This document shows, one piece after another, positions 280-28,762 of a stretch of DNA of 28,762 bases; the stretch's first letter is position 1; every line of letters begins with the position of its first letter. The stretch spans positions 1-28,762 of the forward strand of contig JAUMUB010000002.1 of NCBI GenBank assembly GCA_030530905.1. The letters are read 5' to 3'. Made by a program: the position numbers and the translations under genes. This stretch comes from Bifidobacteriaceae bacterium. Lineage in GTDB: Bacteria > Actinomycetota > Actinomycetes > Actinomycetales > Bifidobacteriaceae. The notes under the pieces were generated by a model. It had not been told where the DNA came from, ran no database searches, and saw nothing but the letters and a program-made list of their open reading frames with translations.

Positions 280-432
280 ATGAGATATTCAACAAAAAAC
301 AAACAGATGCGAGAGAGGAAAGAGTGCGATCAAAAACAGCACTTTGGACTCCGGAAGTTTTCTGTTGGGGTAGCGTCAGTGCTGCTCTCAACAACTTTCT
401 TCATGGCATCTGGACACTATCAAGCTAAAGCC
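280..432 (+). other. YSIRK-type signal peptide (residues 1-51)
   Basis: A charged N-terminus with many Lys and Arg (residues 6-19) precedes HFGLRKFSVGVASVLLS (21-37). This matches the YSIRK-G/S pattern as a variant: FGLRKFSVG. A hydrophobic core follows, and the likely signal peptidase site is after QAKA at residue 51. In Gram-positive cocci and lactobacilli this class of signal is typical of sortase-anchored proteins, often secreted at the septum. The segment uses codons that are rare in the rest of the gene (GAG, AGG, CGA, CAG, AAA, TGC). Cys16 is removed with the peptide. Confidence 0.9.
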
Positions 433-3400: not shown

Positions 3401-6400
3401 CTGCTTATAACTTGGTAAACAGTTATTACAACACTCTGGGATTATCATCAGTTCCAATTACTGCGGATAATAGCAACTTTGGCCCAGGAGCCCAAGCATT
3501 GCACGTGTTGGCTGGCCTTACTAAGTTAACGGGTGCAAATGGTATGCGGCTCAACAACATTACAGCTGGTGGATCCTATACAACACCAGCACAGGTTGTG
3601 AGAGGTACATACAATGCCCAAGCTGTTGATATGGACTGGACTTTCTCAGTAGGTAGTGACGGTAATATTACGTTAAACTCTTACATCGGCTCAAGTCTTG
3701 ATATCAAGATTCCAACTCTTGACGATTTCAAGAATGCAGGTGTAACAGGGCTTAATGATAATTCGACCGTTTCAATCTCTGCTGCAGTTATGAAGAGCCT
3801 TGTAGATAAAGGCGCAACATCAATTGGATTCACTGATACTAATACTAGTCAAAAGGTAGTCGCAAGTGATGGAAACTGGAAGGCTGCTTTAAGTGCTTAC
3901 GGATCAACACAAACTTCAAGCAATACTACTTTAACTAGTGTTGATTTATCACGTTTGGACAGTTCAAATATTACTAATATTGATTACTTGTTCTACAGCG
4001 ATACAGCATTGAAGTCCGTTAAGCTTCCAAACTTTGTTACAAGTGCTGTTACTTCAATGCGTTCAACGTTTGGTTCAACTTCTGCTCTTACAGATTTGGA
4101 TATTAGTGGATGGGATACTTCTAAAGTTCAAACCATGCAAGATATGTTCAACGGAGCAAGTTCCATTACTAATCTGGACGCAATTTCAAACTGGAATACT
4201 TCAAGTTTGACTGGCCCATATGCTCTGTTGACCACTTTCAAGAATGCTTCATCTCTTACAAGTTTGAATCTTTCTAACTGGAATGTTTCCAATGTTCAAA
4301 AATTAGTCGGAACATTTATGGGATGTACAGCTTTGACTAGTTTGAACTTATCAAACTGGAACACAGGCAACGTGGATTCTTTGGCGACTGCTTTTGCTGG
4401 TGACACCGCTCTTACTAGCTTAGATCTTTCAACTTGGGATACTTCTAAGGTTCAATCCTTGGCAGCTACTTTTAATAACTTAAGCGCACTTACATCTTTG
4501 AATGTATCAAACTGGAATACCAGTGCTGTTACAAGCATGCTTAGCGCTTTTTATGGTACGTCATCCTTAACTAGTCTTGATTTGACTGGTTGGAACACTT
4601 CAAACGTCACTGACATGTCATACATGTTCGTAAATTCCGGAATCACTAGCTTCAACGCATCTAAGTGGAATACTCGGAATGTTACTGACATGAGCTCGAT
4701 GTTCTACAATTCAAAGGTAAAGACTGTCGACTTCTCAGGTGCAAACTCTGTAATCGCATCAAACAACGGTGGAATGTTTGATCAAACTTCACCAGTTCTT
4801 GTAGTGGTTAACAACACAACTGAAAAGGGTAAGCTTACAAGCCAACTTCCTGCCTTGAGTGCAACTGTCAATGGTAGTGGTATTACTAAGTCAACAATAA
4901 GTACTCCTCAATTGATGACTGCTAGTGAATACGCAAACCAAGTATCTGCTGATAAAGCAACTGTAAATGCTGTGCTTAAGAACACTAACAATACGCTTTA
5001 CAACTTTGTAAGCAATTACTACAACAAGTTCCAATTAAGCGCTGTTCCTACAACTGCTAACGGAACTAACTATGGTCTACAAGCACAAGCACTTCATACC
5101 TTAGCTGAATTGATCAGAGATCGGTACACTAACAGTGCAAATGATGGTAAGTACGTTCAAAACTACACACCAGCTGCTGATTACAACGATCCTGCCTCAT
5201 TCACCCAAGGTACATTTACTGCTCAAATTGGACAGTTCAACTGGACTTGGACCGCTGATAACAACGGTAACGTCACGCTGAACTCTTACATCGGTAGTGA
5301 CACCAATGTTGTTATCCCAACAGCTGATGACTTTGCTAACGCTGGTCTTACGTATGGATTAAACAATGCTTACATTCCAAGTACTGCTACTGTTTCAATT
5401 TCATCTACAGTAATGAAGTCATTAGTGGCTAACAAAGCTACGTCCATCAAGATTTCTGATACAAATGCTTCACAAAAGGTAGTTGCATCAGATTCTAACT
5501 GGTCTGCTGTATTTGGTGCTGATACGACAAATTATCCAGGTGACAAAGCAAGTTCATACCAAAGCACTCTGACTTCACTTGACCTTAGAAAGCTTGATAC
5601 TACTAACATCAACAACATGGGTCAAATGTTCAGAGGGGCTAGAATTGATAACTTGGATCTCTCAACTTGGAACACTGCAAACGTTACTAACTTCAGTAAC
5701 ATGTTTGAATACTCACACATCAAGTCAATGAACCTGGATGGATTAGTTACAGCCAAGGCCTCTAGTTTAACTTCCATGCTTCGTAACATGGATCTCTTGA
5801 CTACGTTGTCAGTTAAGAACTGGGATCTTTCAGGTACTACCACATTGGCTTACATGTTCCAAAACGATGTCAACTTGACTTCTGTTGACCTTTCAACTTG
5901 GAAGACAAATAACGTTACTGCGATGAACCACATGTTCGCTAATGATGTCGCATTGACTTCTATTAATGTAGGTGGCTCATTCAGCACTGCAAACGTTAAT
6001 AATATGACCGCTATGTTCCAAAACCTGACTAGATTAAAGTCACTGGATCTTGCAAACTTTGATACTAGAAAGGTTACCAGCATGAACAACATGTTCCTTA
6101 ACAACGTGCTGACTACATTGAACATTTCTGGTGATAATTTTGTTGTTAATAGCGGAACTAACGTAAGTCAAATGATTGCTCGGAAGGATGGAACAGGTGT
6201 TGTCTACCAAGGTGCTCCACTTCTGGTAGTAGTGAAGGATCAAGACACGCTTAATGCAATTATGGCTGATTCTGCCAATGCACAAAGCCTGGCTGCTGTG
6301 AAAGCAACAGTTAACGGTCCAGTTAAGCAAACTACAATCACCACTCCAGAAATCATGACTAAGGCTGATTACACGACTCAAGTAACTGCTGACAAGAACA

Positions 6401-9400
6401 CAGTTGCAAATTACCTCAGTGGTAACGGCAAGTACGCAGCTGCATACGACTTGTTGAACACTTACTACGGTCCAAACAACTTGGCTAATGTCACAACTAC
6501 GCCAGACACGTCTGACTTCGGACCTGGCGCACAAGCATTGCATACATTGGCTGCTTTGGCTACCTTGACTCCAAACGACGCTAATGGTTACGTTAACAAG
6601 GTAACTGCAAACGAAGCATTAACCTTGAACACTGTTGCTGTTGGTACATACAACGCTAATGTGGTCGACATGGACTGGACATTCACTGTTGGCAACGACG
6701 GCAATGTAACTCTTAACAAGTACATTGGTACGTCAACTGATGTCGTAATTCCAACTACTGCTGACTTCGTAAATAAGGGTATCAACGGAGTAACTGCTAA
6801 CTCCACTGTATCTATGACTGTTGATGCAATGAAGAGTTTGGCAGGCTATAATTCAAAGACTACTTCCGTCAAGATTTCTGATACTGATCCTAGTCAAAAG
6901 GTTATCGCAGTTGGAAATGATTGGACTAGAGCACTCGCGTATACATATACCCTGACTAGCGTTGATTTAAACCGATTAGAAGTGTCAAACATTACCAATT
7001 TCAGACAATTCTTCTACGATGATAATGCAATTACTGACTTGAAGGTTGATCAATGGAATACCTCAAATGCCACTGATATGACCAGCATGTTCGCTTATAC
7101 TAGAGCTCTTCGTAGTCTGGATATATCAAATTGGAATACTTCACAAGTAACTAGATTGGCTTCAATGTTCTCTAATGCAGGTATAATCAACCTTGATTTA
7201 TCAAATTGGGATACATCAAATGTCACTAGAATGACTAGCATGTTCGAGAGTGCAAGCATTCAAACTATTAATCTGAGTGGCAAGTTTAGTTTCACTAATG
7301 CTGACAGTCACCTCGCTGCTATGTTCTCATTGGATCATAATGTAATGATCGTGGTCAGTGATGAAGCTCAAAAGAATCTGGCTCTTCAAGGATTAGATGT
7401 CGACAATGCTTTGAAATTCAATGTTAACAGTACTGCCCAAGACAACTTACAAATTCTCACTGCGGACGAATACGCTGCTCAAGTGGCTGCTGACTTGGCT
7501 ACATTTAACTCAGTATCGGATACCAACCAACTTGCAGCTCAAGCGTTGGCTAAGTACAACACCGATAATGTATTGACTGGTGTTGCAAAGACTGCTGATA
7601 ACACCAACTTTGGTCCAGCAGCTCAAGCATTGCACGCATTAGCAACAGCATTGAGAACAACTGCAGGAGAAGGGCAAACTAACAGCCAAGTAGTAATTCC
7701 AGAAGCGGATTATGATACTGTTGGTTTAGCTACTGGTAACTTCTTCGTACCATTTACTGCCGACCAAGATTACAAGATGAACGGTACTGTTGATAATCCA
7801 ACTGATTCAATGGTTGTCGCAGGTACATTGCCAACGGGTTACAGCGTCACTGGATGGAGTACTGCTCCTACGACAAGCACTGTTACTAATTTCACTCCTC
7901 GTATTGCTTACTTGACTGGTACTAATGGCATTCCTCGTACTGCTTACTTGACTGTTTCTAACGGCACAAACTCATACGAATTGCCAGTTACATACACGGT
8001 TAAGTCAGGTGCTACTGATGGTCAAAACAACGTATCATTCACTCCAAACGTAATCTACACTGTTGGTGATACTCCATTACGAAGGGACTTTATTACTGAC
8101 ATTCCTGATGACGCATTTTTTTCTACATTCAAATTCAACCCAACCACTGACTCAGTTACTACTGGTTCAGGTATCCTCATCGTTACATTCGGTGATGGAA
8201 CTCAAAAGACTTACACACCTGCATATATGGTAGTTGCTGCTAAGTCTGGCGTTCCAGCTGCACGGCCAGGGGATACAATCAATGCTTCTAGCTACGTCAA
8301 CGTTCCAACTCCTACTGACGGCTCAACTGTCGCTGTCAGCTGGGTAACCGAACCTGACAACCAAACTTCAAGCACTACCCCTCAAACTGTCACAGCTAAG
8401 GTAACTTGGAGTAAGGATGGTCAAGAACTCGCTACTAAGACTCTTGACGTTCAAGTCACAGTCGTAAGCATGAAGGACCAATACGCAAACGACATCACCG
8501 TAAAGGACCAAGCATACGACTACAAGGCAGAACCTACTATTGATAAGGATGCTTTGACTATCACTGGCGACAACACCACTGATATTTCAAACGATATCCA
8601 ATCAGTAACTTGGGCTACCGACGCTGACAAGCCTGACACCAGCAAGCCAACCACTGCATCTAAGACGGTTAACGTAAAGATCACGTTCAAGGACGGTACT
8701 TCAATCGTTAAGAGCATGAACTACACCGTTAACCCATCAAGCTCAGAAAAGGCTGACACTTACGGAATCACTACCACTCCAGGTTCATACAAGCTTGGCG
8801 AAGTAATTTCCGATGCAGAAGCTGCTGCACGTGTGGTAAACGCACCATCAGACGCAACTGTAACTTGGAACGAAAAGCCAAACACTTCAAAGCTTGGACC
8901 AGGTACTGCAACCGTTGATGTTCTGTTCGGTGACGGCAAGACCAAGACCTACAACGTCGACTACAATGTCACTAAGACTTCCACCGACGATCCTTCTGAC
9001 CAAAGCAACAAGAGTCAAATCACGACAAATGTAATGCACTACACGAAGGACGCCGACACTTCTTCACTTAACGGCGTTGTGAACAACTTGCCTAAGGATG
9101 CTGTGGCTTCATGGTCTGTACAACCTGATTCTTCAACTGTAACCAACAACGGTATCGCTGAAGTTAAGGTCGTATTCGCTGACCAAGGTGTTCGTTACTA
9201 CACTGTCAACTACACAGTTACTGACGACGGCTCAGCAGCCACCGGTTCAGACGCACTCAACCTGCAAACCAAGACCTTGACATACACCCAAGGCGACGCG
9301 GTACAAACAGGGGATGCTATCTCAAGTGCTGTATTTGAATCAGTTCCATCAACCGTAACTAAGGTAGATTGGGCAACTCAACCAGATACTAACAAGATTG

Positions 9401-12400
9401 GTTCCGGTATCGCTCAAGTCACTGTTACATACACTGACGGCGGTGCAACCAAGACCAAGACTTACGATGTTGCTTACGTGGTTAACGCAAAGCCAACTCA
9501 CGATGATAGTTCTGAACCAGCTGACCAATCAGACGTTAAGATTAAGAACCAAAGCTACAAGCTGAACGAAACTCCAGTCGCTGACAATGCAGTCGAAAAC
9601 CTTCCTGCAAACGCAACTGTCGCATGGGGCATCAAGCCTGACACTTCAGTTGTGACCGATCACGGTGCAGCTACGGTCATCGTTACATTTGCTGACGGTT
9701 CAACTCGGACATACGCTGTGGCATACACGGTTTCTGATCCAGATGCTGGCCAACCAACTGGTACAACTCAAGCAGATCAAGCTAACTACACGGCTACTGC
9801 CCAAACTTACAAGCTCAACGACACTGTTTCAGAAGCATCAGATGACATCAAGAATGCGGTCTTCCCAGATCAAAATGTTCCATCAGACACAACTGCAACC
9901 TGGGTCGTAAAGCCTGACACATCTAAGCTTGGTAGCAGCATCGCCAAGGTAATGCTGACATTCTCAGACGAATCCACTAAGATTTACAGCGTTTCATACG
10001 TTGTTAACGACGGTGGGGCAGCTAAGGATGAACGTGGCCCAGAAGCCGACAGCAGCAACCTTTCAACCAAGGTAATGACTTACAAGGTCGGGGATGACAC
10101 TAGCTCAACAGCGGTCTTCACAACCGACTTACCTAAGGGCGCAACCGCAAGCTGGTTAACTCAACCAGATAGCACTGCTCCGGTTGACAATGCCGTTGCT
10201 TCAATCCGCGTACAATTCTCAGACGGTTCCGCTCGCGTCTACCGTGTCAACTACTCAGTCACTGCCACTGGCGCAGGCACTACTACACCATCCAGTGACC
10301 TCAACTTGACTGTAAAGCCTGTAACTTACACTCAAGGCGATGAAGTTGAAAAGGACTCAGACGCAATCGTTGCCAAGGTATTTAACGAAAACCTCGATTC
10401 TAACTACACTGCTAGCTGGAAGGAAGGGGCAGAACCTACAACTGCTACTACTGGTTCACGTGTTGCCACTGTTCAAATCAAGGACAACTCTGGCGCAGTA
10501 GTTAAGGAATACAAGGTTGCCTACACCGTTAACGCCAAGGCTCCTGAAACTTCAACTGACACTCGTGGACCTGAAGCTGATTCAAGTCAAATCACTGTTA
10601 ACAAGCAAAGCTACACGGTCGGTCAAAAGCCAACTACCGATAACGTCTTGAATGGTGTTCCAACCGATGCACAAGTCGCATGGGTAAACGCACCAGACAC
10701 TTCAAGCGAAACCAAGAATGGTATGGCTACGATCAAGGTAACCTTTGCGGACGGCAGTGTACGTAATTACGCAGTTCCATACACTGTATCCAAGACTGAC
10801 GGCACATTCACTCCAGGCGGTGACGGTACTAAGGACGCCGACACGGCAAACCTTACTACCAAGTCACTTACCTACACTAAGGGTGAAGACGCAGGTGCAG
10901 CTAAGGACGCATTTACCAACTTGCCAGACGATGCCCAAGCTGACTGGGTAACTGGTCAAGCACCAGATACTTCAAAGGTCGGCTCAGGTGTCGCACAAGC
11001 TAAGGTAACGTTCCATGACGGTTCTACTAAACAATACGCAATCAGCTACACGGTTAACGCCAAGGCTCCTGAAACAACTCCAGACTCTGGTTCTGACCAA
11101 GCCGCACACGCTAACCTGACTACTAAGCCACTTAGCTACACGGTCGGCGCTGCTGTAGAATCTGGCTCAGACGCAATTGCCAGCGCAGTATTTAACGAAA
11201 CTCTTCCTCAAGGCGCAACTGTCGCATGGGTAAGTGAACCAGATACTGCCAAGGCAACCAAGAACGGTCTCGCTAAGGTCCGCGTCACATTCGCAGACGG
11301 TGGTTCAAGAACTTACGATGTCAACTACACCGTAACCGACAGTTCTTCAACTACGCCAACTGGCACGACTGAAGCACAAACGACCACTCTGACTCCAGTT
11401 CCACAAAGCTACAAGCTGAACCAAGATGTGCCAAGTGACCAAACTGCAATGAGCGGTCTGTTCAAGGAAGGTCTCCAAGACGGCGCAACCGCAACCTGGA
11501 TCACCACGCCATCAACTAAGGCGGTTGGTTCTGGTACTGCGATCGTCGAAGTAACGTTCAAGGATAGCTCAAAGGCTCGCTACACAATTGCCTACACCGT
11601 CAACGACACCGAAAAGGATAACGTTGAAAAGGGCAGTGAAGCATCACAAAGCCGCTTGACTCCTAAGAACTTGACCTTCGAAGTCGGCGCAGACACTAGT
11701 GATACTACTAATGTCTTCACTACTGATCTGCCAGCCAAGGCTACCGCTCAATGGTTGATCCAACCTGATTCTTCAGTCGCAACCAACAACGGTGTGGCTT
11801 CAATCAAGGTAACGTTTGGCGACCAATCTACGCGGACTTACCAAGTAAACTATGTCGTAACGCCTAAGGATGGCACTACTCCATCAACCGGTGACGGCGA
11901 CATGAACCTGACTGCAAAGCCATTGACTTACACAATCGGCGATAAGGTCGGGGCTGCTAAGGACGCAATCAACGGTATGCCAGAAACTGCGACCGCTGAA
12001 TGGACTGTAGAACCAACTACTGATACTACTGGTTCACGGATTGCCATTGTAACTGTTACTAACGGTGACAAGACTCAACAAGTTAAGGTTGCCTACACGG
12101 TTGTTCCATCAAGTGTCAACGATGAAGGTGACAAGTTCACGATCGGTGACGGTACACCAACTTACAAGTACGGCCAATCTCTCAACCCAACAGACGCAGC
12201 CGCAACTCTGACTGGTGTTCCATCCGACGCAACTGTTGCTTGGAAGGAAAATGCTCTTCCTGACACTACCCACGTTGGCCAACACCAAAACGGTACTGTC
12301 GTTGTGACATTCGGTGACGGCACAAGCAAGGAATACGGATTCACTTACACAGTTAGTCCATCTAGCTCAACAGAGGACTACAAGATCGGTGACGGTACTC

Positions 12401-15400
12401 CTACTTACACTTACGGCCAACAACTGAACGCAGACGACATCAAGAAGGCATTAACCAACGTGCCAACTGATGCCAAGGTTAAGTGGAGCGATTCATTCAA
12501 CCAAGGTGCCGGTCCTGATACTACTAAGGTTGGTCCTAGCCAAGAAGGTTATGTAACTGTGACATTCGGTGACGGCGTATCACGTGATTACAAGTTCACT
12601 TACACAGTTCAACCATCAACTGGTTCTGACGACGAAATCGCTAAGATCACTACCACGCCAGGTTCATACACGCTCGGCCAAGATGTCTCAGATGACAAGT
12701 TCGCCGCAGAACGTGTACAAGGTGCTCCAACAGATGCTAAGATCACTTGGCAAACTGCTCCAGACACCAAGAAGCTTGGTACTGGTACTGCCGTAGTTCA
12801 AATCCAATTCGGTAACGGCAAGACGATCACCAAGGATGTCGCATACAACGTCACTAAGACTTCAACCGACGAACCTTCAGATCAAAGCAACAAGAGTCAA
12901 ATCACCACGAACCCAATGCACTACACTAAGGGCGCTCAAGTTTCTGACTCACTCGCTGATGTCTTAAACAACGTCCCAGCCGGTGCACAAACTTCATGGT
13001 CACAAAAGCCTGATACTTCAGTTGTCACTAACAACGGTATCGCAGAAGCTAAGGTAGTATTCGCTGACGGTGGTGTTCGTTACTACACTGTAAATTACAC
13101 TGTATCTGACAGCGACACCCCAGCTGCTGGCTCAGACGCACTCAACCTGCAAACCAAGAGCTTGACGTACACTCAAGGTGACGATGTTCAAAGCGGTATG
13201 AAGGACATCGCTGGTGCGGTATTTACCACAGCACTTCCAGCAGGTGTCACTAATGTCGATTGGGCTGTTGCACCAAACACCAAGAAGCCTGGCTCTGACG
13301 TGGCTCAAGTCACTGTGACATACACAGACGGCGACACCACTAAGACCAAGACTTACGATGTTGCATACACGGTCAACGCAAAGCCAACTCACAATGATAG
13401 TTCTGAAGAGGCTGACCAATCAGACGTTAAGATCATCACGCCTAAGTACAACGTGGGTGACACGCCTGACGCCAAGGCTGTTGTAGATAACTTACCAACT
13501 GGCGCAACTGTTGATTGGGGCACTAAGCCTGATACTTCTCAACCAACCGAAAATGGTGTTGCTAGCGTAGTCGTAACCTTCAAGGACGGCTCGACTCGTA
13601 CTTACCCAGTCAGCTACACTGTTGTAGATCCAAATGCTCAACCATCTGGTGAAACCGCAGCTGACAAGGCAAACTACACCACAACTGCGCAAACTTACAC
13701 GTTGAATGAAAAGGTTCCTACCGATTCTGCAACCATCAAGTCCGCAGTATTCGCTGGTCAAGAAGTTCCTGACGATGCAACCGCAACTTGGACTGTCACT
13801 CCAGACACTTCTAAGCTCGGCGGTGGTATCGCTAAGGTAACGTTGAAGTTCTCAGACGAATCAACTAAGACTTACAATGTCACATACGTTGTTAACGACG
13901 GTGGGGCAGCTAAGCCTGAACGTGGACCTGAAGCCGACAGAAGCAACCTTTCAACTAAGGTAATGACTTATACGGTCGGCCAAGACACTAGTGATACTAA
14001 TGTCTTCAACACCGCATTACCAGACGGCGCAAAGGCTACTTGGTTGACTCAACCTGATAGTTCTGCACCACTCGAAAACGGTGTCGCTTCAATCCGCGTC
14101 GACTTCTCAGACGGTTCATCACGTGTCTACCGTGTAAACTACACTGTCAACAACTCTGACGGTACCAAGCCAACTGACTCAACTGGTTTGAACCTCACTG
14201 TTAAGCCAGTAACTTACACTCAAGGTGACAACGTAGAACAAACTTCTGACGAGATCGCCAAGAAGGTCTTCAACGAAACTCTTGAATCTGGTTACACCGC
14301 TAACTGGAAGGACGGGGATGCACCTACTACCGCAACTACTGGTTCTCGTGTCGCAACTGTTCAAGTTAAGGACGCAAACAACAATGTAGTTAAGGAATAC
14401 AAGGTTGCCTACACCGTTAACGCCAAGGAAACTACCACAACTCCTGATACGCGTGGTCCAGAAGGCGATGCTAGTCAAATCACCGTTAACAAGCAAACTT
14501 ACAAGGTTGGTGCTGATACTCCAACTGCTAACGTGCTTAACAACGTTCCAACTGGCGCAACCGTTGAATGGGTAAACAAGCCTGATACTTCAAGTGAAAC
14601 CAAGAACGGTATGGCCACTATCAAGGTCACATTCGCAAACGGTGGATCAAGAACTTACAACGTTCCTTACGTAGTTACTAAGGACGACGGCTCATTCACT
14701 CCAAGCGGTGATGGCAAGACCGACGCTGACAAGGCTAACCTGCAAACTCAACCATTGACTTACACCAAGGGCGACGCAGCAGGGGATGCTAAGAAGGCAT
14801 TTACTACTGACTTGCCAACTAACGCTCACGCAGATTGGGTAGAAGGTCAAGAACCTAACACATCTAAGGTTGGTTCTGGCGTGGCTCAAGTTAAGGTAAC
14901 TTTCGAAGACGGTTCTACTAAGCAATACGCCGTAAGTTACACTGTTAACGCTAAGGCTCCTGAAACAACTCCAGATTCTGGTTCTGACCAAGCTGCTCAC
15001 GCTAACTTGACTACTAAGGCACTTACTTATGGTGTTGGCGACGCAGTACAAGAAGATTCTGACGCAATCGCTAGCGCTGTATTTAACGAAAACTTGCCAA
15101 CTGGTGCCAAGGTACGCTGGACGATCGAACCAGATACCACTAGCGCAACTAAGAATGGTATGGCTCAAGTTGTTGTTGAATTCGCAGACGGTGGTACTCG
15201 CAAGTACGATGTAAACTACACCGTAACCGACAGTACTTCTACCACGCCAACTACTGGCAAGAAGGCTGACACCACCACGCTGACTCCACAACCACAAAGC
15301 TACAAGTTAGGCGAAACTGTCACTGACGACGCTCACGAAATCGCTACTGCCGTATTCAAGGAAGGCTACCCAGCAGATGCTACAAACGTAACCTGGATCA

Positions 15401-18400
15401 CTAAGCCAAACACCACTAAGGTCGGCAGCGGTTCAGCAGTCGTAGAAGTAACATTCAATGACGGTTCATCAGCTCGTTACACTGTTGCTTACACAGTTAA
15501 CTCAACTGAAACCGACAACGACACCAAGGGTACAGAAGCTTCTAAGAGTACGCTGGCTCCTAAGAACTTGACATTTGAAGTAGGTGACAACACTAGTTCA
15601 ACTGATGTCTTCACTACTCCATTGCCAAGTCAAGCTACTGCACAATGGCTCATCCAACCAGATTCTTCAGCTGCGACCGACAACGGTGTAGCTTCAATCA
15701 AGGTAACGTTTAGCGACCAATCCACTAAGACTTACCAAGTAAACTACAAGGTAACTGCTAAGGACGGCTCACAAACGCCTACCGAATCTGGCATGAACCT
15801 GACTGCAAAGCCATTGACTTACACAGTCGGCGACCAAATCGGCGAAGCATCAGCTGCTGTTGACGGTATGCCTCAAGGTGCTACTGCAGAATGGAAGGTA
15901 CAACCAACCACTGCTACTACCGGTTCACGGATTGCCATCGTAACTGTTAAGAACGGTGACAAGACCCAAGACGTCAAGGTAGCCTACACGGTTGTTCCAT
16001 CAACTCCTGACGATGACAAGAAGAAGTTCACAATCACGGATAACAAGCCAACTTACAAGTACGGCCAAACTATCCAAGATACTGACGCTGCTGGCGCATT
16101 AGCAGGTGTTCCAACTGACGCAACTGTGGCATGGCCAACAGACGGCAAGCCTGACACTACCAAGGTTGGTCCTCACACTGGTAATGTAGTTGTGACATTC
16201 GGTAACGGCGAACAAAAGACTTACCAATTCACTTACACAGTTTCACCATCTACTAAGACTGACGCTCAAAGCTACAACATCACTACCACCGACCAAGAAT
16301 ACAAGTACGGTCAATCTACGAACGTAAACGACGTAATCTCTGGTCTTCCTAGTGATGCTAAGGCTAAGTGGAGTGACAGCTTCAACAATGGTGCTGGTCC
16401 TGACACTACTAAGGTTGTAACTGGTCAAACTGGTACAATCACTGTTACATTCGGTGACCAATCCACTGAAGAATACACATTCACTTACACCGTTAAGCCA
16501 TCAAGTTCAGAAGACGCTGATAGCTACCACATCGGTGACGGTAAGCCAACTTACGATTACGGTCACACGTTGACTGAACAAGACCTTAAGGAAGCTCTTA
16601 CTAATGTGCCTAGTGATGCAAAACTCGCATGGTCTGTTGCACCAAACACTACTAGCGTTGGTAAGAACCAATCCGGTAAGGTAACTGTAACGTTCGGTGA
16701 CAACAAGTCTGTTGACTACGACTTCACTTACACTGTTAACCCATCAACAATCAATGATGCTGAAAAGTACAACATTGAAGATGCTGAGCCTACATACGAT
16801 TACGGCCAAGCAATCACTGCTGATGACGCTAAGAGTGCTCTGAAGAACGTTCCTACAGATGCTAAGGTAACTTGGGTAACTCAACCTAATACCAAGACTG
16901 CTGGTAAGGCTCAAGCAACTGTATCCGTTGAGTTCGGTGACGGTAACAGCAAGCAATACACTGTCAACTACACAGTTAAGCCATCAAGCGCAACTAACCC
17001 TGACAGTACTAGCGACGTTACTGTAAACAAGCAAACTTACGAATACGGTGAAACTCCTGACGCAAGCAAGGTATTGAGTGGTCTTCCTACTGATAACAAG
17101 GGCGTTAAGTTCTTGAATGACGTTGCACCTGACACTACTCAAGTCGGTGATCACACTGGTACTGTAGTTGCAACATTCGGTGACGGCTCAACTAAGGAAT
17201 ACGAATTCCAATACACAGTTAAGCCATCAAGCTCAACTAGTGAAAGCAGCACTAAGAACATCAAGGCTCAACACCAAACTTACGCATACGGCGCTACTCC
17301 AAGTGCTGATGACGTATTGACTGGTGTTCCAGCTGATAAGAAGAGTGTTGTATTCACAAACGGCGCTCCTAACACCAAGGTCGTGGGTGATGGTACAAGC
17401 AGCGTAACTGTTACATTCGGTGACGGCTCACAAGCTACATACAGCTTCGATTACACTGTTCAACCATCAAGCTCAGAAGATGCATCCAAGTACAACATCC
17501 AAGACGCTCAACCAACTTACAAGTATGGTCAAGCACTCACGGATGCCGATGCTAAGTCTGCTCTGACCAACGTACCTAGTGATGCTGAAGTAACTTGGAA
17601 GGACGGCAACAAGCCTGATACCAAGACTGCAGGTAAGGGTAGTGCAGTTGTTACTGTTAAGTTCGGTGACGGCAAGAGTGTAGATTACCCAGTAACTTAC
17701 ACTGTTCAACCATCATCACTTGCAGACGAAGCTAGCTACAAGATCGGCGACGGTACGCCAACTTACGACTACGGCCACAAGTTGACTGCTGAAGATCTTA
17801 AGCAAGCACTTACCAACGTACCAAGCGACGCACAACTCGCATGGGATGTACAACCTGACACTACTCAGGCAGGTACTGGCAAGACTGGTTCCGTAACCGT
17901 TACATTCGGTGACAAGCAATCCAAGACTTACAACTTCACTTACACCGTTAAGCCATCAACTTCAGGTAATGCTTCTAGTTACAACATCTCAACCACTCCA
18001 GGTACATATGTTGTCGGCCAAGAAATCACGAATGAAGATGCAAAGGCTCGTGTAACTAACGCACCAACTGATGCAACTGTTACATGGGTAGACGGTCAAG
18101 CACCTGATACTTCAACTCTTGGTGCACGGACTGCCAAGGTACAAGTTAAGTTCGGTGACAACTCTGTATTGACTTACGATGTTCCATATACCGTTACTAA
18201 GACGTCAACTGATCAACCATCAGATCAATCAAACAAGAGTCAAATCACCGCTAACGTAATGCACTACACCCAAGACGATGACACTTCATCAACTGCTGGT
18301 GTTCTGAACAACGTACCAACTGGCGCAATCGTAACCTGGTCTGTAAAGCCTGATTCTTCTAAGGTAACCAACAATGGTGTCGCAGAAGCTAAGGTAGAAT

Positions 18401-21400
18401 TCGCTGACCACGGTGTTCGTTACTACACTGTCAGCTACACTGTCGTAGCTAAGGACACTGGTACTACAACTCCTGCTGGTACTGACGCCGCTGAAGCACT
18501 TACTACTAAGACCGTAACCTACACTCAAGGTGACACGGTACAAAGTGGTATGACTGATATCGCTAAGGCAGTATTTAACGAAACTCTTCCTGGCAACGTA
18601 ACTGATGTTGCATGGTCACAACAACCAAACACTGACAACCTCGGTTCTGGTGTTGCAGAAGTTACCGTAACTTACACTAAGGACGGTCAACAACTCACTA
18701 AGACCTACAACGTTCCATACATTGTCAACGCAAAGACTAGTCACAATGATTCTTCTGATGAAGCTGACAAGTCACAAGTTGTCGTTAAGACTCCTAGCTA
18801 CCAACTCAACGACCCAACTCCAGTAGACCAAGTAGTAACTAACTTGCCAGACGGCGCTAAGGCTGATTGGGTAGTTAAGCCAGACACCACCAAGGCTACT
18901 GACAAGGGTGTTGCTACCGCTGTCGTAACCTTCAAGGATGGCTCAACTCGGACATACGCTGTGGCTTACACAGTTACTGATCCATCTGCTCAACCAACTG
19001 GCGACAAGCAAGCGGACACTGCAAACTACACTACAACTGCTCAAAGCTACAAGTTAGGTGACCAAGTGCCAACTGACTCTGCAGCAATCAAGAGCGCTGT
19101 ATTTGCTGGTCAAAGTGTTCCAGAAGACGCAACCGCAACTTGGACTGTCAAGCCTGACACTACTAAGCTCGGTTCTGGAATCGCTAAGGTAAGCTTGAAG
19201 TTCTCTGACAACTCAACCAGAGAATACAATGTTTCATACGTTGTTAACGACAATGGTTCAAGCACTGATACTCGTGGACCTGAAGCCGACCGCAGCAACC
19301 TTTCTACTAAGGCAATGACTTACAAGGTCGGGGATGACACTAGTTCTACTAATGTCTTCACCAGTGAATTGCCAACTGGCGCAACCGCAACTTGGTTAGT
19401 TCAACCAGACGCAACTGCTCCAGTCGACAACGCTGTCGCATCAATCCGCGTGGTATTCTCAGACGGTTCTGCTCGTGTCTACCGTGTCAACTACTCAGTA
19501 ACTAACTCAGATGGTTCTAAGGCAACTGATCCAGCAGGCCTCAACCTGACTGTACAACCTGTAACGTACACTCAAAACGACCCAGTTGAATCAACTTCTG
19601 ACCAAATCGCAGCTAAGGTATTCAAGGAAGGCGCACTTCCAGCTGGCTACACTGCTCAATGGAAGACGGCTCCTACGACTGCTACTACTGGTTCACGTGT
19701 CGCAACTGTTGAAGTTCTCGACAACACCGGTGCAGTAGTCAAGACATACCAAGTTGCTTACACGGTCAACGCCAAGACCACTGAAACTGGTGAAGACACG
19801 CGGACTCCAAACGCCGACGGAAGTGAAATCACTGTCAACGCTCAAACTTACAAGGTTGGTGCCGCAACTCCAACTGACGGCGTATTGAGCAACGTTCCTA
19901 GTGACGCACAAGTTGCCTGGGTAAACGCACCAGACACTTCAAGCGAAACTACTAACGGTATGGCAACCATCCAAGTAACCTTCGCTGATGGTGGGGTACG
20001 TACTTACAACGTCCCATACACTGTCACTAAGGAAGATGGTACAAACACTCCAACCGGTGACGGATCTAAGCAAGCCGACACGACGACTCTGAAGACTAAG
20101 AGCCTTACTTACACCCAAGGCGATGAAGTAGGGGATGCCAAGGACGCATTTACTGATCAATTACCAAACGACGCTTCAGCAGAATGGGTAACTGGTCAAG
20201 AACCTAATACTTCTAAGGTCGGCTCAGGTGTTGCTCAAGTGAAGGTAAACTTCAGCGATGGCTCATCCAAGCAATTCGCTGTAAGCTACACCGTTAACGC
20301 CAAGGTTCCTGAAACTAAGCCTGACACTGGTTCTGACGAAGCTTCACGCGCTAACTTGACGACTAAGGCTCAAAGCTACACTGTCGGTGAAAACGTACCA
20401 ACTCAATCTGCAGATATCGCATCTGCTGTATTCAATGAATCACTCCCAGCTGGCGCAACAGTAGACTGGACAACCAAGCCAGATACTGCTAGTGCTACTA
20501 AGAATGGTGTGGCTCAAGTAGAAGTTAAGTTCTCTGACGGCGGAACGCGGAAGTACGATGTAAACTACACCGTAACTGACACGACTAAGCCATCAACTCC
20601 AACTTCTGGTACTAAGGCTCAAACGACCACGCTGACTCCAGAACCACAAAGTTACAACTTAGGTGACACTGTTGGTGATGACGCCGCTACTATGGGTAAG
20701 CTCTTCAAGGAAGGTCTCCCAGCAGGCGCAACTGCAGCTTGGATCAACAAGCCAGTTACTACCAAGGTCGGCAGCGGCACGGCCCTCGTTGAAGTAACAT
20801 TCGACGACCACTCAACCGCTAAGTACACCATCGCTTACACTGTCAACTCAACTGACACTGATAAGAACGACAAGGGTACTGAAGCTTCTAAGAGTACGCT
20901 TGTTCCTAAGAACTTGAGCTTCCAAGTAGGCGACGACACTAGTTCTACTGATGTCTTCACCACTAAGCTCCCAGAAGGCGCAAGTGCTCAATGGCTCATC
21001 CAACCTGATTCTTCCGCAGCAACTAACAATGGTGTGGCATCAATCAAGGTAACTTACTCCGACCAATCCACTAACACTTACAAGGTAAATTACGTTGTTA
21101 CTGCTAAGGAAGGTCAACCATCAACTGGTGACTCTGACTTGAACGTAACCGCTAAGAACCTTACTTACACTGTTGGTGACCCAGTCGGTGAAGCTCAGGA
21201 TGCCGTAGATGGTATGCCTGAAGGTGCAAGTGCACAATGGAAGGTAAAGCCAACTACTGACAAGTCCGGCTCACGGATGGCAATTGTGACCGTAACTTAC
21301 GGTGATAAGACGCAAGACGTCAACGTTGCCTACACGGTTAAGCCATCAACCAAGGATGACGCTGGTACCAAGTTCACCATCGAAGACAACAAGCCAACTT

Positions 21401-24400
21401 ACACTTACGGCCAACAACTCTCCGATGATGACGCAGCTGCTACCTTGAAGGGACTTCCATCTGACGCAACTGTCGCATGGAAGAACGGACAAAAGCCTGA
21501 TACCAAGACCGCTGGTAAGGATCAACCAGGTACTGTGGTTGTGACATTTGGTGACGGCTCACAAGCTGAATACCCATTCACTTACACAGTTTCACCATCA
21601 ACTAAGACAGACGCTGATAGCTACGGAATCACCACGACTGACCAAACTTACAAGTACGGTGACACCACCGACGTAACCAAGGTCATCTCTGGTCTTCCAT
21701 CTGATGCTCACGCTAAATGGAGTGACTCCTTCAACGACGGTAACGGTCCAGATACAACTAAGCCGGTAACTGACCAAACTGGTACGATCACTGTAACGTT
21801 CGGGGATGAATCCACGAAGGACTACACATTCAAGTACACAGTTCAACCATCTACTAAGGACAACGCTTCTAGCTACAACATCACAGCTAAGCCACAAACT
21901 TACGCATACGGATCAACTCCAGATGCTAAGGATGTCTTGACTGGTGTTCCAGCTGATAACCAAGGTGTAACGTTCACGAACGGCGCACCTGACACTACCA
22001 AGGTTGGTCCTGGTACAAGCAAGGTAACTGTGAAGTTCGGTGACGGTTCTACTCAGGACTACGACTTCACTTACACTGTTCAACCTTCAAGCAAGGACGA
22101 TGCTTCTAACTACGACATCAAGGCTACTGACCAAACTTACAAGTACGGTCAAACCCCAGATCCTAAGACTGTTCTGACTGGTGTTCCATCAGACGCAACA
22201 GTTACCTGGAAGGACGGGGTAGCTCCTGATACTACTAAGGTTGGGGCAAATCAAAAGGGTACTGTGACCGTCAAGTTCGGTGACCAACAAACCCAAGATT
22301 ACGACTTCAACTACGAAGTTAAGGCATCTACTCAATCAGACGCTGACTCCTACAACATCCAAGACGGCAAGCCTAACTACAAGTACGGCCAAGAAATCAC
22401 GGATGCAGACGCAGGTAAGGCTCTGAAGAATGTTCCTAGCGACGCAACCGTAACTTGGAAGGACGGCGCAAAGCCAGATACTTCTACTGTCGGTACGCGG
22501 ACCGCAACTGCTGTGGTTAAGTTCGGTGACGGTTCTACTAAGGAATACACGGTAACTTACACAGTCGGTCAATCAAGCGCAACGCCTGATACAATCGCTA
22601 AGATCACGACTACTCCAGGTACTTACACTTACGGCCAAGTAGTTGGTGACACTGAAGCCGCTGCACGTGTTTACGGTGCTCCAACTGATGCAACAATCAC
22701 TTGGAAGACTAAGCCAAACACTGCTAAGCTCGGTGCTGGTACTGCCGTTGTTCAAATCGAATTCGGTGACCACACGACTACTACTAAGGAAGTTCCTTAC
22801 ACTGTGACTAAGACTTCTACTGACGATCCATCCGATCAAACAATCAAGAGTCAAATCACTGCAAACGTAATGAACTACGAAAAGGGCCAAGACACTAGTT
22901 CTACTGACGGCGTATTAAACAACGTCCCAGCAGGCGCTACGGTAACCTGGTCAGTACAACCTGATTCTTCAGAAGTAACCAACAACGGTATCGCTGAAAT
23001 CAAGGTTGAATTCGCCGACCACGGTATCCGTTACTACACTGTCAGCTACACTGTTACTGATAAGAGTTCTACTACTCCAACCACCGCTGACCCAGCAACT
23101 ACTCTGGTACCTAAGAGCGTAACTTACACGCAAGGCGAAACTGTTCCTACTACTAAGGACGACATCGCAGGATCTGTATTTACGACTCCATTGCCAGAAA
23201 ACGTTACTGACGTTAAGTGGGCGGAAGAACCAAACACCACTCAACCAGGTTCAGGAATTGCCAAGGTCACTGTTTCATACACTGACTCTGAAGGTAACCC
23301 TCAAACCGTAACTTACGAAGTGCCATACACGGTTAACGCAAAGCCAACTCACAATGACAGTTCACCTGAAGCTGATTCAGCAAACATCACTGTGAAGACG
23401 CCTCAATACACTAAGGGCGACGATCCAAAGGCTGCTGACGTGGTAGAAGGCTTACCAGACGGCGCAACTGTCGACTGGAACGTAAAGCCTGACACTTCAA
23501 AGGCAACTGAAAAGGGTGTCGCAAGCGTAACCGTAACGTTCAAGGATGGCTCAACTCGTACTTACCCAGTAAGCTACACGGTTGTTGACCCAGACGCACA
23601 AAAGCCAACTAACCCAAGTCAAGCTGAACAAGCCGACTTGACCACGAAGACGCAAACTTACAAGCTCAACGATCCAGTTCCTACTGAATCCGACGCAATC
23701 AAGTCCTCAGTCTTCAACGGCGATGTGCCAGCAGACGCAACTGCAACTTGGACGACCGCTCCTGACACTTCTAAGATCGGTGGTGGAATTGCGAAGGTAA
23801 CTCTCAGCTACCCAGACGGTTCTACTAAGACTTACAATGTCACATACGTAGTTAACGACGGTGGCAAGAGTCAAGATACTCGTGGAAAAGAAGCAGATCA
23901 AAGCACGCTTACTACTAAGGCAATGACTTACAAGGTCGGGGATGACACTAGTTCTACTGATGTCTTCACTACTGCATTGCCAGACGGCGCCAAGGCAACT
24001 TGGTTAGTACAACCGGACGCAATTGCTCCAGTTGACAATGCGATTGCTTCAATCCGCGTCGACTTCTCTGACGGCTCATCTCGTGTATACCGTGTCAACT
24101 ACTCAGTAACTAACTCTGACGGCACTAAGCCAGCTGATCAATCCGGCCTCGACTTAACTGTTAAGTCAGTAAGCTACACTCAAGGTGACGACGTTGAAAC
24201 TACCTCTGATGCAATCGCTAAGAAGGTATTTAACGAAGATCTCCCAAGTGGCTACACTGCTCAATGGAAGCCAGGCACTGAACCAACTACTGCTACTACC
24301 GGTTCACGGACTGCTGTAGTTCAAGTTCTTGATCAAAACGGCAATGTCGCCAAGGAATACAAGGTTGCTTACACGGTTAACGCTAAGGCTGTAACTCCAG

Positions 24401-27400
24401 GCGGCGATTCTGGTTCCGACCAAGCTGCCAAGGCCAACTTGACCACGAAGGCACAATCTTACAAGGTTGGCGATTCAGTTCCTACTGATTCCGCTGACAT
24501 CGCAAGTGCGGTCTTCAACGAACAATTGCCAGAAGGTGCTAAGGCAAGCTGGAAGGTGGCACCAGATACTACTCGTGCTACGAAGAATAGTGTTGCCCAA
24601 GTTCAAGTCGACTTCGCTGATGGCGGTACAAGAGTATACAACGTCAACTACACTGTCGTAGATGACTCAGCTACTCCTTCAACTGGCGACAAGACTAAGG
24701 CAGAAACCACTACTCTTACTCCAGTTTCACAAACCTACACTCAAGGTGATACTGTTGCTACTGATAAGGATGCAATGGGCAAGCTCTTCGCTGAAGGTTA
24801 CCCAACCGACGCTACTAGTGTTGTATGGAGCACCACTCCAGATACTAGTCGGGTAGGTAGCGGTACAGCGGTTGTCGAAGTAACATTCGATGATGGTTCT
24901 AAGGCTAAGTACACGATCGCTTACACGGTCAACGCTACTACGCCAGCACAACCAGAAACTGCTACAGAAGCATCAACCAGCAAGCTTGCTCCTAAGGCAA
25001 TGACTTACAAGGTTGGCGACGACACTAGTTCTACTGATGTCTTCACCACCGCATTGCCAGCAGGCGCTAAGGCACAATGGTTGATCCAACCAGACGCTTC
25101 AGTTGCTAAGACTAACGGTGTGGCTACAATCAAGGTTACGTTCTCAGACGGCTCCGAAAACACTTACCAAGTCAACTACTCAGTAACCGCAAACGACGGT
25201 ACTAAGCCAAGCGACGAAGGTACAGGATTGACCGTCACTGCTAAGGACCTCCAATACACTGTCGGCGACCCAATTGGTGATGCCAAGGACGCTGTAGATG
25301 GAGTTCCAGCAGACGCAACTGTTGAATGGAAGACCAAGCCAACCACTGACACGACCGGCTCACGGATTGCAGTTGTCACTGTCACATACAACGGCAAGAG
25401 CCAAGACGTCAAGGTAGCTTACACGGTTGTTGCTAAGGCCAACGAAGATACTCACTCATCTGATGCAGACAAGAGTCAAATCACTGTCAACCCTCAAACT
25501 TACACTAAGGGCCAAGCAGTAACTGATGATGATGCTAAGAAGGCCTTGAACAACGTACCTGCAGGCGCAAGCGTTGAATGGTCACTCAAGCCAAACACCA
25601 ACGTCGCTACTACTGATGGCAAGGCAGAAATTAAGGTAACATTCGCTGACGGCGGTGAACGTTTCTACCCAGTAACTTACACTGTTACGGATGAAAGTGG
25701 TTCAACCACACCAACGACGACCGTTCCAGCTGAAACCTTGACTCCTAAGACATTGACGTTTGCACAAGGCGATCAAGCAGGGGACCCAAGTGATGTCTTC
25801 ACCACTAAGCTCCCTGAAGGTGTAACTGCTGAATGGACGACTAAGCCAGATACCACAGCTATCGGCCATGGTACTGCTCAAGTCACTGTTCACTACACTG
25901 ACGCAAATGGCCAACCAGCATCTAAGACTTACGACGTTCCATACGTTGTCAATGCCAAGGATGCTAAGCCAGAAAACAGTGGTAAGGAAGCTGACACCGC
26001 AACGCTTACTACTAAGAGTCCAAGCTACAACGTCAACGACAATGTTCCTGACGACTCTGCTTCAATTGCCGGTTCTGTCTTCAACGAACCTCTTCCAGAT
26101 GGCGCAAGTGCTGCTTGGAAGACTAAGCCAGACACTACCAAAGCGGTTGAAAATGGTACCGCGGTTGTGACTGTCACATTCTCTGACGGTTCTACCAGAG
26201 ACTACACGGTTACATACTCAGTAACTGACCCAAGTTCTCAAACTCCTACTGGTGAAACCGAAGCTGATAAGCACGACCTGAAGACGCAAACTCTGAACTA
26301 CAACCTCGGAGATGACGCAGGTGACGCTGCTAAGGCATTTACTAACTTGCCAGATGGCGCTACCGCAACCTGGGTAACTCGCCCAGACACTTCAACGGTT
26401 GGCTCAGGTACTGCTCAAGTCAAGGTAACTTACAGCCAAGACGGTTCAAGCAAGACTTACACTGTTGCTTACAACGTCAACGCCGGTGATAAGGGTCAAA
26501 CTTCTGGCGATGAAAACTCCAACGCAAACAAGAGTCCATTGCAAACTAAGGAACTTCAATACAAGGTCGGCGATACTGTCGGGGATGCTTCAACTGCATT
26601 TAACCCAGCATTCGCAGATCCAAACGCCACTGGCTACACTTGGATCAAGAAGCCAAGCACTGATGTTCCAGTCGAAAATGCAACTGCTTCTGTTCGTGTT
26701 GACTTCGCCGATGGTAGTTCACGGATCTACTTCGTCAACTACAAGGTAACTTCAACCGATACTGGCACTGGTACTACTCCATCTGGTACGGACGAAGATA
26801 CTAAGCTCGACTTAACTGTTAAGTCTATGTCCTACAAGAAGGGCGATGCTGTCGGGGATGCTGCTAGTGTATTCACCACTGCACTTCCAGAAGGCGCAAC
26901 CGCTGTTTGGACTAAGACGCCAGATACTACTGAGGTTGGTAACGGAATTGCTGAAGTTCAAGTAACTTACAACGGCAAGACCTACACTTACAAGGTCGCT
27001 TACACAGTTAAGGACAATGGTGAACAAGGCGGAAGCGAAACTCCAACTACACCAACTGACGAACTCAGCCGGATCACTGTAAACAACCAAACTTACAAGA
27101 TCGGTGATACTCCTTCAACTGATGGCGTATTGAACAACGTACCAGAAGGCGCAACAGTAGAATGGGTAACTAAGCCTGATACTACTGCTGAAACCAAGAA
27201 CGGTATGGCAACGATCAAGGTCACTAAGGGCGATGCTTCAATCACTCTTAACGTACCTTACGTAGTTACTAAGGAAGACGGCAGCCAAACTCCAACCGGC
27301 GACGGCAAGACGGACGCTGACAAGTCAACCTTGGCAACTAAGAGCATTGCGTACACGCAAAACGATCCAGTCGGGGATGCTAAGGATGCATTCACCACTG

Positions 27401-28762: not shown

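Follow-up and report, generated by a model that had tools for sequence, protein, structure and literature searches.

A ranked, multi-layered super-repeat of Rib-type domains in a giant bacterial surface protein

The stalk of the protein described here follows a fixed order of 13 different Rib-type domains (ranks 1-13) that recurs in successive blocks along a single open reading frame. The frame lies in the window, the entire contig of 28,762 bases (Table 1), and contains 81 Rib-type domains, N01-N04 and 77 in the array; an iterated profile had marked 82 stretches, of which the one at residues 163-182 (-5.1 bits) was dropped. Blocks A, B, C, D and E hold 15, 21, 18, 11 and 12 domains, and the stalk reads one gamma domain, 12 alternating alpha and beta domains, three gamma, 12 alpha-beta, nine gamma, 12 alpha-beta, six gamma, 10 alpha-beta, eight decayed alpha-beta and four C-terminal domains. 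The protein is likely a giant cell-surface adhesin of a Lactobacillaceae species, its leucine-rich head borne by a stalk that numbers some 80 Rib-type domains and grew stepwise by duplication. The stalk would project the head, a function suggested by the architecture of the protein.

Both the head and the domains belong to known families, the domains being ordinary Rib; what is novel is the architecture. The head repeats score 545 bits with PF03382 (cut-off 25) and, over region 280-5000, 446 bits with TIGR02167 (cut-off 30), which places them in PARCEL/BspA. With the Rib profile PF08428 (cut-off 27), blocks A, B, C and D+E reach 258, 371, 351 and 524 bits, single domains not all attaining the cut-off alone. 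An alpha-beta-alpha profile matched the solved Rib structures 6s5y, 8yke, 6s5x, 6s5z and 8yk7, and the C-terminal part matches seven solved Rib structure entries.

Table 1. Position of the features of the giant surface protein in the window.
Feature	Coordinates	Strand	Remarks
Open reading frame, 9,494 codons	280..28761	+	open at contig end
YSIRK-type signal peptide	328..405	+	Pfam PF04650, 38.5 bits; TIGR01168
PARCEL/BspA-like leucine-rich repeats, presumed head	880..7270 (limits approximate)	+	11 DUF285 stretches; PF03382, TIGR02167
N01-N04	7768..8733	+	four divergent Rib-like domains
Block A	8752..12630	+	ranks 1-13 and 2 gamma domains
Block B	12631..17970	+	ranks 1-13 and 8 gamma domains
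Block C	17971..22587	+	ranks 1-13 and 5 gamma domains
Block D	22588..25461	+	ranks 1-7 and 10-13, without gamma run
Block E	25462..27540	+	eight decayed domains collinear with ranks 2-9
E09-E12	27541..28515	+	237-bp repeats in C-terminal tandem; E09-E11 95-100% identical as protein
12-domain alpha-beta segment (example)	9001..12102	+	block A, ranks 2-13
Gamma run A14-A15-B01	12124..12855	+	3 domains
Gamma run B14-B21-C01	16015..18198	+	9 domains
Gamma run C14-C18-D01	21361..22809	+	6 domains
P/T/G-rich stretch and start of C-terminal region	28516..28761	+	contig stops before any anchor

An earlier note had read from this DNA an order of about 13 domains recurring four to five times. This holds for ranks 1-13 in blocks A to D, except that D lacks ranks 8-9 and that the 'fifth' copy consists of decayed ranks 2-9. 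Block starts were set at TTPG sequences, and those at 8767, 12646, 17986 and 22603 (spacings 3,879, 5,340 and 4,617) are as first described; the ITTTPG attributed to all four is present at three, the third copy reading ISTTPG. Three further motifs recur as proposed: DPSDQ.. (8989, 12871, 18214 and 22825), G[VI]RYYTV (9187, 13072, 18412 and 23023) and the linker motif NAK.. (9484, 13375, 18727 and 23335). A block length of 1,300-1,800 residues suits A, B and C (1,293, 1,780 and 1,539), but the absence of ranks 8-9 and of the trailing gamma run brings D down to 958. The other differences in length reflect the number of 'YxYGQ' domains (gamma) in a run that varies from block to block, with 2, 8, 5 and 0 in A to D.

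Domains of the same rank are indeed more alike than neighbours within a block. Over 72 same-rank pairs the core identity is 67.9% (minimum 47.7); the 46 pairs of adjacent domains in ranks 1-13 have 35.8% (maximum 47.1) and the 243 other within-block pairs 40.3%. When ranks were shuffled inside blocks 2,000 times, the mean came to 41.8 and the highest value to 47.4. Searched among all 81 domains, 49 of 50 find their best match at their own rank, the exception being C01, which prefers C18. Across the 77-domain array identity peaks at lags 15 (46.8), 18 (43.9), 21 (49.8), 36 (48.1) and 39 (45.2), which are the block lengths and sums of them. Linkers follow rank as well: those after ranks 1-12, D07 left out, agree at 61% in the 63 pairs of equal rank and at 27% in the remaining 927 pairs. 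At the DNA level, self-alignments span whole blocks, such as 8767-12634 with 12646-16516 (71.8%) and 12310-16809 with 17662-22152 (71.0%), and the offsets are multiples of three in all 21 rows listed.

Domain trees of 77 and 50 domains, resting on 63 and 68 columns, group mostly by rank across blocks. Clustering of neighbours, the pattern that the earlier note had set against its own reading, was looked for and did not appear: the three neighbour pairs forced as clades were all rejected (A06+A07, p-AU 2e-6; B08+B09, 5e-5; C10+C11, 6e-7). Rank 10 does not resolve in the 77-domain tree and forms a weak clade in the 50-domain tree (79/79). Rank 12 makes a clade in neither because D10 falls outside, such a clade not being rejected (AU 0.48). 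Contiguous DNA alignments, rank-specific linkers, mostly rank-wise trees and the rejection of the three neighbour clades, all from one assembly, thus strongly support the duplication of whole blocks as units.

The first description, sound on block order, had missed a two-domain alternation and a likely six-domain layer. Ranks 2-13 alternate two domain kinds, alpha at even and beta at odd ranks. Even ranks fall on one side of a branch in the 50-domain tree (95/94), as they do together with E01, E03, E05 and E07 in the 77-domain tree (94/86); odd ranks 3-13 were not recovered as a single clade, nor was this clade rejected (AU 0.51). Ahead of the last strands, 21 of 23 even-rank domains have one kind of loop and 22 of 23 odd-rank domains another, according to patterns defined once the alignment had been seen; two of 23 odd domains match the even-rank pattern and no even domain matches the odd-rank one. 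Identities within ranks 2-13 at lags 1-6 are 35.7, 42.4, 36.7, 44.9, 36.1 and 49.2, those at lags 2, 4 and 6 exceeding those at 1, 3 and 5. The two kinds also differ in length, with ranks 9, 10 and 13 deviating.

Three pairs of ranks, each six apart, are sisters: 2+8, 6+12 and 7+13, with supports of 96/84, 97/98 and 96/98 in the 50-domain tree and 98/91, 99/98 and 90/85 in the 77-domain tree. These sister ranks make it probable that a six-domain unit was doubled before the blocks arose, the layer being supported by three of the six lag-6 pairs. The trees do not show 3+9, 5+11 and 4+10 as sisters, nor do the tests reject these pairs (AU 0.44, 0.52 and 0.39); since the control pairings 3+7, 2+4 and 9+11 are not rejected either (AU 0.26-0.32), these tests have little power.

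A third kind, gamma, separates the 12-domain segments in variable runs. Rank 1 groups with the gamma domains following rank 13 in the 77-domain tree (99/94), and weakly with rank 11 in the 50-domain tree (80/74), from which gamma domains were left out. Linkers of gamma domains are shorter (mean 18.6 residues, against 22.3 and 23.0), hence a hint that these runs may be stiffer. The gamma run of block B also contains a local duplication, 16441-16878 and 17653-18090, at an offset of 1,212.

A model of A06-A07-A08, built from 19 triples of the window, reached a mean pLDDT of 88.1 and a pTM of 0.66, with pLDDT below 50 at 80-82 in the first linker. Ranks 6 and 8 are modelled as four-strand domains, and rank 7 bears an added eight-residue helix (106-113) absent from them; a further five-residue helix (177-181) is predicted just ahead of rank 8. 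Forms in which a helix replaces sheet are included in the Rib family according to section 10 of PMC6936399. The inserted segment is not strict to kind, one being found in rank 10 (alpha) and none in ranks 9 and 13 (beta).

The gap in block D corresponds to exactly one alpha-beta pair, ranks 8-9, missing in frame with its junction in linkers at about 24370-24390, so the alternation is kept. For block E, profile A1 aligns 25447-27549 to its positions 79-776 with 625 bits. The order of E01-E08 scores 1474 against ranks 2-9, other starts giving 881-1113, and parity-keeping orders average 1192, a fraction of 0.003 being as good as 1474. Single best ranks agree in only five of eight (E01, E02, E05, E07 and E08), and the 77-domain tree places E05 and E07 inside ranks 6 and 8. 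D10 (rank 12, 24979-25245) is a mosaic, its first half being 90% like D06 (rank 6, 23889-24132) and its second half 55% like D06 and 68-72% like its rank-12 counterparts in A, B and C; conversion between ranks therefore happens.

The block copies are old, constrained and without recent homogenisation. All six block pairs show dS of 0.89-1.12 and dN/dS of 0.24-0.30, by a simple Nei-Gojobori method with Jukes-Cantor correction for which dS near 1 is close to saturation. These dN/dS values are no proof of rank-specific selection, as constraint on the fold would suffice. Recent gene conversion between blocks was not seen, apart from the between-rank D10 mosaic.

It had been suggested that the fixed order could avoid misfolding between identical neighbours. 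Neighbours in ranks 2-13 are indeed less alike than in shuffled orders (fractions 0.015, 0.0008, 0.015 and 0.020 in A to D), but the effect disappears once shuffles keep the alternation (0.39, 0.10, 0.44 and 0.56). The dissimilarity thus arises because two domain kinds alternate, and optimisation of the order beyond alternation was not seen in these shuffles. Whole blocks show no avoidance of alike neighbours in A (0.16), B (0.71) or C (0.78), nor do the gamma runs (48 and 55% identity; 0.39 and 0.74); in block E shuffling makes neighbours less alike (0.97), and adjacent domains of E09-E11 are 95-100% identical. Avoidance of misfolding by neighbour dissimilarity is possible. In the parts of Bjorklund et al. 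(PMC1553488) available to us, lower neighbour likeness is reported for other families, with multi-domain duplication favoured as the main cause and the lowered likeness seen mainly as a by-product. Our view is that here too multi-domain duplication would be the main cause, selection being also conceivable.

With the rank order, the block-scale homology, the alternation, the age of the copies and the variable gamma runs at hand, the likeliest build-up leads from an alpha-beta pair to six and then twelve domains. The pair would have multiplied to six and the six doubled to make ranks 2-13; this segment of twelve, with neighbouring gamma domains, would then have been copied whole, presumably via unequal recombination, giving blocks A-D and the shortened E. 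We infer this order of steps, and recombination as their means. The copies would then have drifted under purifying selection, so that each rank kept its own sequence. The fixed order is thus most likely chiefly a fossil of duplication. Alternation, which keeps neighbours below 50% identity in ranks 1-13, probably also lowers the folding risk of so long a chain and hinders its shortening by recombination, changes of length being presumably left to the gamma runs and the C-terminal tandem.

Alternatively, the heterotypic order itself could be selected, as in titin, the 12-domain segment being a mechanical or binding module in which every rank has its given place and similar neighbours are selected against. 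This is rather unlikely in our eyes, even if several observations fit it: ranks stayed distinct over a dS of about 1 at dN/dS 0.24-0.30, D lost a whole alpha-beta pair and its alternation survived, E retains the alternation and on the whole the rank order, and neighbours in ranks 1-13 are at most 47.1% identical. Yet with alternation fixed the actual order separates alike domains no better than a random one does, neither the gamma runs nor E09-E11 keep neighbours unlike, equal dN/dS would follow from purifying selection on the fold, and our searches turned up this order in no second species. A fuller version, a bacterial counterpart of titin with selected 12-domain modules, an order that prevents misfolding between neighbours and fixes module length, gamma runs as adjustable spacers and the C-terminal tandem as a fast-changing length tuner, is unlikely.

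Three further explanations are still less probable. Ongoing gene conversion between equal ranks would account for a similarity that is even across all block pairs, and conversion does occur, but between ranks (D10/D06); as no block pair exceeds about 0.79 nucleotide identity in 82-column windows and synonymous sites are near saturation overall in six of six pairs, we regard it as very unlikely. That the copies were made or joined by repeat assembly is highly improbable: the draft bin is fragmented (193 contigs, 74% complete) and the contig ends soon past the near-identical 237-bp tandem, so the copy number of E09-E11 may be wrong, but the blocks differ at 28-34% of nucleotides, a single frame stays open over its 9,494 codons, and the sole gap, D ranks 8-9, falls in linkers. 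Independent single-domain duplications converging on the same order retain practically no probability. The gamma runs are locally alike as they would predict (B16/B21 67%, C16/C17 69%), but for ranks 1-13 this explanation is refuted by linkers and DNA that align across whole blocks and by the rejected neighbour clades. Duplication of whole segments remains our preferred reading.

In titin, domains at the same position are the most alike, and it is from titin that such an arrangement is best known; a multi-layer ranked order in a bacterial stalk is new. Both chains repeat a fixed domain order as a unit, and the pairing of fixed order with most alike same-position copies is found here through 49 of 50 best matches and the trees. 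The A-band super-repeats comprise a seven-domain unit repeated six times and an 11-domain unit repeated eleven times, both in fixed order, as the accessible sections of PMC10862085 describe them. Titin differs in joining Ig and Fn3 folds in muscle, whereas a single Rib-type superfamily at a bacterial surface displays 13 ranks in four to five copies with variable spacer runs; a mix of two unrelated folds is absent here, all blocks scoring as Rib. Likewise, nebulin seven-domain units and domain-repeat expansions involve the copying of several domains at once, mostly in eukaryotes, and the portion of PMC1553488 consulted does not describe the layers of alternation, six-domain unit and block.

Among bacterial proteins, Periscope Proteins and alpha-like Rib proteins share with our protein Rib domains and an N-terminal head on a stalk (PMC8201768, PMC9704523 and PMC6936399, each in the parts at our disposal). 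Their tracts have near-identical neighbours, in contrast to the 36% of blocks A-D, and go against the rule of unlike neighbours in long chains (PMC8201768, PMC9704523, same parts). Adjacent repeats at least 80% identical occur nowhere in ranks 1-13 and only in E09-E11, which look like a Periscope tract. At 27486-28302, 3.4 copies of the 237-bp repeat (93% match) give a stalk that is divergent elsewhere a Periscope-like tract at its C-terminal end. The giant Ig-like adhesin of Mobiluncus mulieris, a surface protein of 7,651 residues and 51 domains of mixed kinds, differs by cross-linked Ig-like domains and LPxTG, and the extract of PMC10619420 consulted mentions no ranked super-repeat. Giant1-5 of Apilactobacillus kunkeei are likewise giant repeat-bearing surface proteins of lactic acid bacteria, of 3,000-8,000 residues with imperfect repeats (in one, 13 x 366 aa); beta-solenoid heads (Giant1-4), helical or other repeats and DUF5776 ends set them apart, Rib not being mentioned in the extract of PMC12863079 consulted. 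In listings of 3-15 out of 3-511 papers, mostly from outside subscription journals, the titles and abstract openings pointed to no bacterial protein whose super-repeat is ranked.

Among bacterial stalks of such kind, those described best consist of alike domains in a row. Here, within one chain and one domain family, the rule that neighbours differ is obeyed in most of the stalk and broken at one end, which offers a natural comparison for asking whether heterotypic order affects folding, stiffness or stable length. This question has so far been tied to titin-like proteins, which are hard to manipulate, and relatives with another period (4/8) add to the comparison.

Two such relatives were found. 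Contig C10 of the same assembly carries a frame of 5,058 codons that is open on either side; its head is of the kind seen in the 13-rank protein, and its array (6115-15175) has periods of 4 (43% identity) and 8 (51%) domains, the four-domain super-repeat alternating into an eight-domain one. P0003, from Limosilactobacillus sp. MAG S11A_St_6 (contig JAUMUE010000011, locus L072, whose flanking genes look by eye like ordinary bacterial housekeeping genes), has periods 4 (47%) and 8 (51%); at lags other than multiples of four, both show 25-31%. They share with the 13-rank protein the head type, the N02-N04 and rank-1 domain types, which resemble the four-domain unit of C10, and a super-repeat of their own, but with a period of 4/8 domains instead of 13 ranks. 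Ordered super-repeats thus exist in at least two giants of this family, the 13-rank block being seen only in the present protein among the candidates scored. The head with the N01-rank 1 region found 12 loci in genome contigs, L072 alone matching end to end and the other 11 being distant head-like repeats; relatives gave only weak scores when classified for ranks 2-13.

Searches for the 13-rank block covered proteins, each time scoring a capped list, as well as genomes and plasmids. No protein matched among 501 candidates scored; a second search gave two matches in 7,997 scored (27-28% identity, C10 itself and P0003) and a third one 26% match in 7,999. Four of 112 genomes of the bin's assigned genus had any match, full blocks occurring only in its own genome, and the same four matched among 189 genomes of the assigned family (best three candidates at most per genome). 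In the genus of the Limosilactobacillus MAG (G112), 15 of 50 genomes matched over at most 406 of 1,127 positions, and in its family 29 of 397 (best two candidates at most per genome), the longest over 451 positions. As these sets overlap and scoring in each genome was limited to its best few candidates, the result does not amount to proof of absence. Two short patterns run on genome contigs confirmed none of 60 candidates; plasmids gave one record (26%), and none with the C-terminus as query. No second strain with this gene was found in these searches.

The contig is probably mis-binned, which is the simplest reading, gene transfer being possible instead; the source is likely a Lactobacillaceae species, probably of Limosilactobacillus. 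The best named relatives of the window are Limosilactobacillus, and 28207-28761 matches, at 88% identity, residues 1-181 of a relative on a Limosilactobacillus MAG contig that continues. RecA of the bin and RecA of the Limosilactobacillus MAG are only 64% identical, against this 88% for the last ~181 residues. Tandem-fused entries set aside, the bin's RecA scores best (559-563 bits) with 4po1, 4oqf, 1ubc and 1g18, while E. coli entries reach about 475; we take the four to be mycobacterial RecA, so that the bin's RecA would be of actinobacterial type. GC content (window 45.6%, RecA locus of the bin 40.6%) is not decisive. The C-terminal continuation of the relative (L099, G112:C13, 3-1055) has a FIVAR-like stretch of 26.0 bits, below the 29.2 cut-off, then a likely membrane helix, RRR and a Rib-like stretch, and no LPXTG was seen, the helix and the lack of the motif both being judged by eye.

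Other Rib arrays (25 + 5 frames, lag means judged by eye) show a two-domain period in L151 and L068 and an alike tandem in L170 (62%); the rest apart from L147 and L139, among arrays of 5-28 domains mostly too short for a 13-rank period, have no clear period. A 3,717-residue frame, L147 (G196:C1), has a possible weak five-domain period, 41% against 24-30% at other lags. L139 (G218:C1, G112 genus), a 17-domain Rib array about 95% alike, represents the opposite extreme of stalk design.
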